The notes under the pieces are model-generated. The model had not been told where the DNA came from, searched no databases, and was given only the letters and a program-made list of their open reading frames with translations. From NCBI RefSeq assembly GCF_028994805.1, contig NZ_JAJQQP010000007.1, positions 81,468-145,467 of the forward strand: 64,000 nt of DNA, read 5' to 3'. Of the stretch, positions 33,163 through 51,073 are shown one piece after another (within the stretch, counting starts at the first letter, position 1; every line of letters begins with the position of its first letter). The stretch is from Promicromonospora iranensis. Its GTDB lineage: Bacteria > Actinomycetota > Actinomycetes > Actinomycetales > Cellulomonadaceae. Made by a program: the position numbers and the translations under genes.

Positions 33163-33249
33163 CCCGCCGAGGTAGACACTCAGCGAAGCAGTCAGGCAGC
33201 GAGGTAGTCAGGCCTGCTGACTACCTCGCTGCCTGACTACCTCGGCGGG
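33163..33249 (-). repeat. Dispersed palindromic element, copy A
   Basis: The inner stem of 20 perfect base pairs (33191-33210 with 33218-33237) has a 7-base loop. The outer 13-bp stem (33163-33175 with 33237-33249) is separated on the left by a 15-base insert. The core words are GCAGCGAGGTAGTCA and TGACTACCTCGCTG. It lies between the convergent aquaporin and ArsO-like genes, eight bases past the leftward stop codon. Copy B is at 50979-51073, and a short related fragment overlaps the end of arsR at 35221-35240. It probably serves as a terminator. Confidence 0.8.
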
Positions 33250-33256
33250 TGATGGG

Positions 33257-48218: not shown

Positions 48219-48878
48219 ATGGACTGGCAGCTCGTCGCCGACTCGTTCTGGCCGCTCCTGCGGGGTGGCCTCGTCGGCACCATCCCGCTCGCCCTCGCGT
48301 CCTTCGCGATCGGGCTGGTGCTCGCACTCGTCGTGGCGCTCCTGCGGCTGTCGCCGAACCGGATGCTGTCGTGGATCGGCCGCGCGTACGTCTCGCTGAT
48401 CCGCGGCACACCGCTGCTGGTGCAGCTCTTCATCATCTTCTACGGCCTGCCGCAGCTCGGCGTCCGGTTCGACCCGTGGCCCGCCGCGATCATCGCGTTC
48501 TCCATGAACGTCGGCGGCTACGCGGCCGAGGTGATCCGAGCGGCGATCCTGTCCGTGCCCAAGGGGCAGTGGGAGGCGGGCTGGACGGTGGGCATGTCGC
48601 CGGTCCGGACGCTCCGCCGGATCGTCCTGCCGCAGGCGGCGCGCGTGTCGGTGCCGCCGCTGTCGAACACGTTCATCTCGCTGGTCAAGGACACGTCGCT
48701 GGCCACGGTCATCCTGGTGACCGAGATGTTCCGCAAGGCCCAGGAGATCGCCGCGTTCTCCAACGAGTTCATGGTGGTCTACACCGAGGCGGCCCTGATC
48801 TACTGGATGTTCTGCACGGTGCTCGCCACCGGCCAGAACGCTATCGAGAAGAGGCTGGACCGGTATGTCGCGCACTGA
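48219..48878 (+). CDS. Polar amino acid ABC importer, permease
   Basis: This 219-residue inner-membrane permease of the HisM/GlnP family has five helices. The N-terminal signature is [20 protein letters not shown], the conserved loop is [23 protein letters not shown], and the EAA motif is [22 protein letters not shown]. As a homodimer it forms the translocation path. Its end overlaps the ATPase gene by 14 bases. Confidence 0.92.
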
Positions 48879-49722
48879 GCCGTCCGATCGACCCGGGCCT
48901 TCCGACCGCCCCGTGCCCGACACCCTGCTGACCGCGCGCGGCATCGAGAAGTCGTTCGGCGAGAACCACGTGCTGCGCGGCGTGGACCTGGAGGTCCGGC
49001 GCGGCGAGGTGGTCGCGCTGATCGGCGCGTCCGGGAGCGGCAAGACCACAGTGCTCCGCTCGCTCAATGGGCTCGAGACGCCGGACGCCGGGATGGTCGA
49101 GTTCAACGGCGGCCCCGCCGTCGACTTCGGCGCCCAGGCCGCCGCCGCGACCGGCGGCTGGGGAGTCCGGCGGGAGGGCGCACGCCAGGCGAAGGCGGAC
49201 CGCGCGGCCCTGCGCGACCGGTCGGCGATGGTGTTCCAGCACCACAACCTGTTCCCGCACCGCACCGTGCTGGACAACGTGATCGAGGGCCCCACGCAGG
49301 TCAAGCGGATCCCCCGCGCGACGGCGGTCGGCCGTGCCGAAGAGCTCCTGGCCCGCGTCGGGCTCGCCGACAAGCGCGACGCCTACCCGCACGAGCTGTC
49401 CGGCGGTCAGCAGCAGCGCGTCGGGATCGTGCGTGCGCTGGCCCTCGAGCCGGACCTCCTGCTGTTCGACGAGCCGACGTCGGCCCTCGACCCCGAGCTC
49501 GTGGGCGAGGTGCTGAGCGTGATGAAGGAGCTCGCGGACGAGGGCTGGACCATGGTGGTGGTGACGCACGAGCTGCAGTTCGCGCGCCAGGTCGCGGACG
49601 AGGTGCTGTTCCTCGACGGCGGCGTGGTGGTCGAGCGTGGTGCGCCCGCGCAGATCTTCTCCGACCCGGCCGAGGAGCGGACACGCCGTTTCCTCGACCG
49701 GATCCTGCACCCCCTGGACTGA
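48865..49722 (+). CDS. Polar amino acid ABC importer, ATPase
   Basis: This 285-residue ATPase has Walker [11 protein letters not shown]-loop [17 protein letters not shown], signature [15 protein letters not shown], Walker [13 protein letters not shown] and switch His VTHELQFA. It matches the GlnQ/TcyC family but carries an extra segment of about 25 residues (near 80-115) between Walker A and the Q-loop. It powers import with the two preceding gene products and overlaps the permease gene. Confidence 0.92.
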
Positions 49723-49737
49723 CCCGCCACGCAGCGT

Positions 49738-49890
49738 CTACGCGGCAGCGACCGCCACCCGGCGACGCACCACACACCCGAGCGCGAAGACGGCCAGTGC
49801 TGCGGCCGCCGCGGCAGCGCCTGCGAGGTCGAGCCAGGCCGCACCGTACGGCAGCACGGACGCCCCGACGACCGGCGCGAGAATCCTGCT
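49738..49890 (-). pseudogene. 3' remnant of an MFS-type transporter gene
   Basis: On the minus strand about 50 in-frame codons end at a TAG at 49738-49740. They encode a loop (ILAPVVGASVLPYGAAWLDL), one Ala-rich hydrophobic helix and a basic tail (VVRRRVAVAAA), the usual last helix of an MFS transporter. The frame is broken by an in-frame TAG inside the adjacent perfect hairpin that starts at 49891, and the 5' part of the gene is missing. There is no start codon with a ribosome binding site. Deletion or insertion at the hairpin is the likely cause. Confidence 0.5.
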
Positions 49891-49958
49891 CCCTTTCGAG
49901 GTCTAAGTTTCTCCGCTCTGAACCGTTTCAGAGCGGAGAAACTTAGACCTCGAAAGGG
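49891..49958 (-). repeat. Perfect 32-bp stem hairpin
   Basis: Arms 49891-49922 and 49927-49958 are exact complements around the four-base loop CCGT. The stem is AT-richer than the genome (contains CTAAGTTTCTCC). It lies 18 bp behind the stop codon of the leftward Gfo/Idh gene and directly abuts the MFS remnant. It can act as a strong terminator, but its length and perfection suggest an inserted or mobile element. Confidence 0.85.
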
Positions 49959-49976: not shown

Positions 49977-50957
49977 CTACTCGCCCGGGTACTTGAGGCC
50001 GATCTGCTCGCGGATCGTGTCCAGCGTCCCCATGATCGCCACGGTCTCGGCGCGCGACAGCAGCGGGCTGTCCAGCTCGCCGGCCGCAACCATGCGCTCC
50101 GCCTCGGCAGCCTGGAAGTGCATGCCGCGGCCCGTGACCTCGGCGGTGAAGGTCTCCGTCTCGGTGCCCTCGACGTCGTACACGTGGACCGTCGCCGGGT
50201 TGTACCAGACGGCGTCGATCTCGATGCGGCCGTCGGTGCCCAGGATCGACGCGCGGTTCGGACCCTTCGTGTCCGAGGCCGAGACCGTCGTGGCGACCCG
50301 GGCACCGTCGTACCCGAAGATCGTGGCGATCGTCGCGTCCGCGCCGGTCTCCTTGAACGTCGCGTGCGACTGGATCGTGAGCGGCTCGCCGAACACGTCC
50401 CAGGCGAACGAGACCGGGTAGATGCCCAGGTCGAGCAGCGAACCGCCGCCCAGGGCCAGGTCATTGATGCGGTGCGTCGGGTCGTCGGAGAGGTCCTGGG
50501 TGTGGTCCACCATCAGGGTCCGCACCTCGCCGAGCACGCCCGACGCGATGATCTCGCGAACGCGCGCCATGTGCGGCAGGAAGCGGGACCACATGGCCTC
50601 CAGCGCCACGAGGCCCTTCTGCTCGGCGAGCTCCGCGATCTCGCGCGCCTCGGCGGCGTTGACCGTGAACGGCTTCTCGACCAGCACGTGCTTGCCGGCC
50701 TCGAGCACGAGCTTCGCGGCCTCGGCGTGCATCGGGTGCGGCGTCGCGACGTAGATGATGTCGACCTCGGGGTCGTTCACCAGGTTCTCGTAGGAGCCGT
50801 GCGCCGTCGGGATGCCGAAGCGGTCCGCGAAGGTGCGCGCCTTCTCCAGGGATCGGGACCCCACCGCCTGCACGGTGAAGCCGTTGTCGTTCAGGTCTGA
50901 TGTAAAGGCAGCGGCGATCCCGCCGGCCGCGAGAATGCCCCAACGCAGGTGTGTCAT
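49977..50957 (-). CDS. Gfo/Idh/MocA family oxidoreductase
   Basis: The product is 326 residues. The N-terminal Rossmann fold starts RWGILAAGGIAAAFTSDL, then IIYVATPHPMHAEAAKLVLEAGKHVLVEKPFTVN with the catalytic EKP motif. The C-terminal alpha/beta domain has GGGSLLDLGIYPVSFAWDVFG. It oxidises or reduces a sugar or cyclitol with NAD(P). Close relatives include trans-1,2-dihydrobenzene-1,2-diol dehydrogenase-like proteins; the substrate is unknown. It is flanked by two unusual palindromes: the 32-bp-stem hairpin behind it and copy B of the dispersed element ahead of it. Confidence 0.88.
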   Translation of the reverse strand: MTHLRWGILAAGGIAAAFTSDLNDNGFTVQAVGSRSLEKARTFADRFGIPTAHGSYENLVNDPEVDIIYVATPHPMHAEAAKLVLEAGKHVLVEKPFTVNAAEAREIAELAEQKGLVALEAMWSRFLPHMARVREIIASGVLGEVRTLMVDHTQDLSDDPTHRINDLALGGGSLLDLGIYPVSFAWDVFGEPLTIQSHATFKETGADATIATIFGYDGARVATTVSASDTKGPNRASILGTDGRIEIDAVWYNPATVHVYDVEGTETETFTAEVTGRGMHFQAAEAERMVAAGELDSPLLSRAETVAIMGTLDTIREQIGLKYPGE

Positions 50958-50978: not shown

Positions 50979-51073
50979 TCCGCCGAGGTAGACATCTGGC
51001 GAAGTAGTCGTGCAGCGAGGTAGTCACCCAGCGCGAGCTGGGTGACTACCTCGCTGAGTGACTACCTCGCGGG
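50979..51073 (-). repeat. Dispersed palindromic element, copy B
   Basis: The inner stem is 20 perfect base pairs (51013-51032 with 51037-51056) closed by the GNRA-type loop GCGA. An outer stem uses CGAGGTAG and CTACCTCG. The left half shares CCGCCGAGGTAGACA and GCAGCGAGGTAGTCA with copy A at 33163-33249, and the right half shares TGACTACCTCGCTG and TGACTACCTCG. It lies five bases past the stop codon of the leftward M6 protease gene, the same relative position as copy A. Confidence 0.8.

Follow-up and report, generated by a model that had tools for sequence, protein, structure and literature searches.

The region analysed here is a 64,000-nt window (the whole stretch of DNA under study) of the genome of Promicromonospora iranensis, designated G000. 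It contains a palindrome situated between the 3' ends of two convergent genes and beside the remnant of a third. The features of the locus, together with a further palindrome from elsewhere in the window, are as follows:

48865-49722, plus strand: ABC transporter ATPase (Pfam PF00005), convergent with the Gfo/Idh gene
49738-49881, minus strand: remnant of an MFS transporter, 44 aligned C-terminal residues and the stop codon (assigned by alignment; the intact homologue matches Pfam MFS_1)
49891-49958, no strand: palindrome with 32-bp arms and a CCGT loop, a copy of a dispersed family (model R1)
49977-50957, minus strand: Gfo/Idh/MocA oxidoreductase (Pfam PF01408), its 3' end facing the hairpin at a distance of 18 bp
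50999-51070, no strand: palindrome of a different repeat family with the GCGAGGTAGTCAC motif, adjacent to the locus
33177-33251, no strand: another palindrome of that second family, whose members are built on GCGAGGTAGTCAC and sometimes form nested arrays

The arms of the palindrome (49891-49922 and 49927-49958) are 32 nt long, 100% complementary and separated by 4 nt, as described in an earlier note on this DNA, and they are the longest perfect arm pair found in the window. The note had also called the palindrome AT-richer than its surroundings. Its GC content is indeed 0.515 vs 0.72 in the window, and only 0.4% of 68-nt windows are equally AT-rich. The calculated RNA fold of either strand has an energy of about -60.7 kcal/mol, as compared with a mean near -18 for shuffled sequences (z about -14; none of 200 shuffles was equally stable), and RNA transcribed from either strand would form a very strong hairpin.

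The truncated gene noticed beside the hairpin is an MFS transporter gene. The alignment of its remnant with the C-terminus of a 395-aa MFS protein from the relative G005 spans 44 residues and has a score of 169 (the best score among 500 shuffles was 64). Approximately 349 N-terminal residues have been deleted, up to a junction some 10 bp away from the hairpin. As the note had proposed to check, the gene is whole in relatives, namely G005, G010 and G006; it is nearly intact in G007, G011, G008 and G003, and has left no trace at the locus in G012 or G002. A family hairpin lies behind the orthologous Gfo/Idh gene in eight of the 13 species of the genus compared (G000, G012, G002, G005, G006, G001, G010 and G009), some of which retain the intact MFS gene; the hairpin therefore predates the deletion. 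Thus, of the suggestion that it marks an insertion or deletion point, the position at the junction is confirmed, but the hairpin was not left by the deletion.

In G005, G010 and G006 a second family hairpin follows the ABC gene, so that the genes between the two hairpins are bracketed; in G005 the MFS gene and a gene for an ArsR-type regulator are among them. G009 also has hairpins behind both the ABC and the Gfo/Idh genes, but on two contigs. Inspection by eye showed an unrelated palindrome with GAGATCTGGTG-type arms behind the Gfo/Idh gene in G003, G007 and G011, and another unrelated one with a GTGGGCGTGATCGTTGCG arm in G008, while in G004 the ABC and Gfo/Idh genes nearly abut. The presence of other palindromes at this place in four of the 13 species argues that a hairpin is useful at the end of the Gfo/Idh gene.

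In the stretches between the ABC and Gfo/Idh genes of four relatives (L200, L201, L205 and L206) we noticed letters that we took to resemble a TPP riboswitch. At the gathering level, Rfam reported no TPP riboswitch in this interval of the relatives and no known RNA family in six loci, the present one included; microRNA-like matches fell under their cut-offs. At another copy (G000:C28:331864, in L076:4300-5700), G000 is devoid of a block of several kb that most relatives have between the flanking genes, and the hairpin sits beside the junction. Hairpins may mark the ends of deletions more often.

A genus-specific family of palindromes past gene 3' ends

The hairpin belongs to a family of near-perfect palindromes, 60-66 bp in length, that is specific to the genus and has its copies dispersed just past gene 3' ends. 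A search of G000 yielded 29 copies. A covariance model built from 82 copies gave 58 matches in this genome on the two strands together; with the matches halved for the two strands, the model counts about 29 copies in G000, 32 in G012, 28 in G001, 32 in G002, 2-3 in G003, 48 in G006, 30 in G007, 58 in G011 and at least 75 each in G005, G009 and G010, and none in G004 and G008. The further copies that the earlier note recommended looking for are therefore present both in the genome itself and in relatives, 11 of the 13 genus genomes having the family. In a scan of 221 genomes of the taxonomic family to which the genus belongs, 15 matched: these 11 and four of 208 others (G152, G200, G202 and G228), with one or two weak hits each and a best E-value of 4.8e-9 (G228). 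A plain DNA query matched nine of 39 genomes, all of the same genus, and none of the 26 others. The exact arm pattern occurred in 72 stretches of the genome collection, all titled Promicromonospora, and in these all 75 exact-arm copies had a partner arm. In G000, all 50 arm matches with up to two mismatches fall inside the 29 palindromes, and no single unpaired arms were found, which speaks against an uptake signal or a transposon end. A plasmid or phage origin was rejected: the hairpin had no match among 72,556 records of plasmids and 50,697 of phages, and viral_contigs gave no exact hit of the arm pattern. In the literature searched, which covered only a minority of subscription papers, no description of this palindrome family was found.

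Of the 29 copies in G000, 17 lie where two genes converge and 12 where genes run in tandem; divergent gene pairs have none. Among 196 copies sampled from ten species, 107 are convergent, 82 tandem and 5 divergent, and 2 lie at contig edges (both counts rely on a home-made gene caller); 189 of the 196 thus lie between convergent or tandem genes. The median distance past the stop codon is 32 nt for the sampled copies. The family copies are stable hairpins near gene 3' ends. However, they are not followed by a T-run: only one of 392 stem sides has an 8-nt window with at least five T (in the background gap counts for this check, hairpin gaps were subtracted roughly), and a scan of the consensus for terminators found none. 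A neutral repeat that is tolerated only where no promoter is near would fit this placement bias as well.

Conservation of pairing was analysed in 82 aligned copies, 81 of them distinct. In total, 93.6% of the cells pair, changes on both sides were seen in 21 of 31 pairs, and there were 197 cells with both-sided changes vs a shuffled mean of 75; none of 500 shuffles reached the observed pairing values. The 26 core pairs are free of mismatches in 70 of the 196 copies. The core arms are uniform, whereas the loops, 2 to 8 nt long, and the outer pairs are variable. The copy C1:162744 of G000 has one extra base in each arm, absent from its G012 counterpart (L091), which fits copying from arm to arm. 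Selection on RNA pairing would be expected to make G-U pairs in the sense strand the commoner mismatches of tandem copies; the counts were 46 vs 31, a difference that was not significant (p 0.11), and wobble bias was set aside as evidence of RNA-level selection.

G000 holds other palindrome families at gene ends as well. One of them, the second family with its two palindromes in the window, has the word GTGACTACCTCGC, for which the counts were 49 in G000, 151 in G007 and between 0 and 7 in every one of the remaining 11 genomes; the reversed control gave none. In G000, a third family with GTTGAGTGCTGGATATCTGTGG-like arms lies behind gene ends at L046:3678-3744, L050:3069-3125 and L074:6841-6906, and a palindrome with GTGGGCG...CGTTGCG arms was seen at L073:7563-7631. 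The latter also stands behind the Gfo/Idh gene of G008 (L206), a genome devoid of the family under study. Several palindrome families seem to stock the gene ends of the genus and to bloom in different species.

Species dialects of the arms and site memory of the loops

The dialect comparison covers the 196 copies. Arms from different sites of one species had an identity of 0.912 (2330 pairs), arms from one site in different species 0.866 (256 pairs), and arms with neither species nor site in common 0.835 (16,524 pairs). Uniformity within the species concerned may be overstated in these values because a pattern supplied the copies of G009 and G010 and some of the G002, G006 and G012 copies, and most copies of G005, G006, G001, G002 and G011 are the best-scoring ones. 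This pattern holds parts of the arm constant but not position 10, and at positions 11, 22 and 27 it allows either C or T. L156 and L158, which have odd loops, were missed by the profile, and the low-scoring L085 was added by hand.

At arm position 10, A occupies both arms in G005 (26 of 29 copies) and G011 (10 of 10), and G does so in G000 (28 of 29), G009 (30 of 30) and G010 (30 of 30). At position 22, C is found in both arms in 27 of 29 G000 and 20 of 23 G012 copies, and T in 29 of 30 G009 copies. Position 11 is mixed in G000 (16 T/T, 10 unequal and 3 C/C), as if a change were in progress. Both flanks could be matched for 107 ortholog pairs. Of eight G005 sites flank-matched to G006, G009 or G010, seven have the G005 spelling and one does not. 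Since copies at orthologous places carry the species-specific spelling, in both arms, the arm sequence follows the species more than the site.

Unlike the arms, the loops retain some memory of the site. Between G000 and G012, loops at the same site were identical in 10 of 20 cases and inverted in 4 of 20, as compared with 8.5% and 8.4%, respectively, at different sites; the excess of inversions is only suggestive of template switching. Same-site memory was also detected for G009-G010 (p 0.001) and G006-G009 (p 0.005). Across a dialect shift it was weak (G005-G009, p 0.036, n=6; G005-G006, p 0.067, n=5; G000-G002, p 0.20, n=5), which leaves room for re-insertion at favoured sites.

A convergent gene pair present in all 13 genomes provided a second site for comparison. 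A family hairpin separates the two genes in G000, G012, G005, G006, G009 and G001, each time in the species' own spelling. In G003, G007, G010 and G011 the stop codons are 7-9 bp apart with no hairpin, and the hairpin is therefore not essential there; the stops are 38 bp apart in G004, and G002 and G008 have other inserts. G009, with the hairpin, and G010, without it, are sisters on the flanks of this pair, which are 97% identical, so that the gain or loss must have been recent. No clear target duplication was evident by eye at this one empty site.

Relation to known systems and possible origin

Repetitive extragenic palindromes (REPs, or palindromic units, with GTAG and CGTC tags) are dispersed, species-specific palindromes placed mostly between convergent or tandem genes (PMC3733652, PMC3686654, PMC2817692). 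The family resembles them in being dispersed, extragenic and multi-copy, in its placement and in its species-specific sequence, but its stem is longer and nearly perfect and its spelling changes in concert at orthologous sites. No unpaired GTAG or CGTC tag was seen by eye at the foot of the stem in the consensus or the 82 aligned copies. In Neisseriaceae, DNA uptake sequences form species dialects of a repeated word, with inverted pairs at terminators (PMC3630211, PMC13020248). Dialects and inverted pairs are shared with the present family, in which, however, the arms are about 26 nt long, the copies number in tens, and those of G000 are palindromes only, all 50 arm matches lying in palindromes rather than as abundant single copies that also occur in genes. 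Intrinsic bidirectional terminators are hairpins just past stop codons with pair changes on both sides (PMC5381666); the family shares the position and the compensatory changes, but is devoid of a U-tract and forms one sequence family over many loci. We assign it to none of these three classes. Maintenance of hairpin stems by template switching (PMC8794818, PMC8604942) resembles what is seen here in the double changes and in the copy that gained a base in each arm. It accounts only for the matching of arm to arm and not of locus to locus.

Our preferred reading, which we consider probable though by a long way not certain, is that of a REP-like repeat that serves as a two-way, U-less 3'-end hairpin and whose arms are homogenised within each genome. 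The hairpin would act in both directions, either stopping transcription or protecting mRNA ends, without a U-tract. Template switching inside the palindrome would carry a change from one arm over to the other, while recombination between copies, repeated copying or a shared reader molecule would keep the copies of a genome alike. Against a role at 3' ends, G004 and G008 live without the family.

A rather doubtful alternative is a REP- or MITE-like mobile palindrome that spreads in bursts in each species and re-inserts at gene-end sites, replacing older hairpins, with any terminator role incidental. Mobility of the family, proposed in the earlier note for a "new mobile palindrome", is suggested by the copy-number range, from none (G004, G008) through 2-3 (G003) to at least 75 (G005, G009, G010), and by the clean presence or absence at the convergent junction in G009 and its sister G010. 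One site that was checked also distinguishes G000 from G012, which has other sequence there. Dispersal was thus borne out, but no mobilising enzyme was found in a search for the Y1 transposase family: the RAYT/Y1 transposase domain (PF01797) was detected in none of the 13 genus genomes, while the same search was positive in 5 of 14 control genomes, and mobilisation by a RAYT was rejected. As to MITE features, there are no orphan arms in G000 and no target duplication evident by eye at the single empty site. The site memory of the loops between species (G000-G012, G009-G010, G006-G009) also speaks against re-insertion.

Less probable still, and in our view unlikely, the arms could be half-sites that a co-evolving protein or RNA recognises by their sequence, with a dialect for each species as in DNA uptake sequences. 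The joint shift of both arms in nearly all copies of a species is consistent with such a reader, as are the uniform core arms next to variable loops and outer pairs and the non-significant wobble bias among mismatches. However, uptake sequences differ from the G000 copies, among which no arm stands alone, and a loop length of 2 to 8 nt would be awkward for a rigid dimer site on double-stranded DNA. Finally, a locus-specific origin, whether as a strong intrinsic terminator of the ordinary kind or through a recent inverted duplication at this place, is very improbable: the position between convergent gene ends would suit it, but the arm sequence is common to 29 copies, the hairpin is present in eight of 13 species at the locus, the stems have no T-run, and the existence of the family refutes it as a sufficient account. 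The note was right to look beyond an ordinary terminator; its very recent inverted duplication is contradicted by the 29 copies and the orthologous placement, and conservation behind the Gfo/Idh gene, which it had taken as the mark of a plain terminator, holds for the placement, but what is conserved is a member of a repeat family.

What keeps the palindromic repeats within a genome alike is a long-standing open question, and a 1988 paper by Higgins reportedly asks in its title whether REPs evolve by gene conversion. Beyond the preferred reading of a homogenised REP-like 3'-end hairpin, we tentatively entertain, as possible rather than probable, a bolder one: a dispersed palindrome distinct from REPs, tens of copies of which are respelled together at inherited gene-end sites by a reader or by copy-correction. 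Because sister species one clean double change apart can be compared site by site, gene conversion, re-insertion and reader co-evolution can be distinguished here. Such a case would also demonstrate the exchange of one palindrome family for another at a gene end. If the reader version is true, Promicromonospora would have a reader that recognises U-less two-way terminators by their sequence and co-evolves with them; if the copy-correction version is true, there would be efficient correction between 60-bp palindromes scattered over the chromosome.
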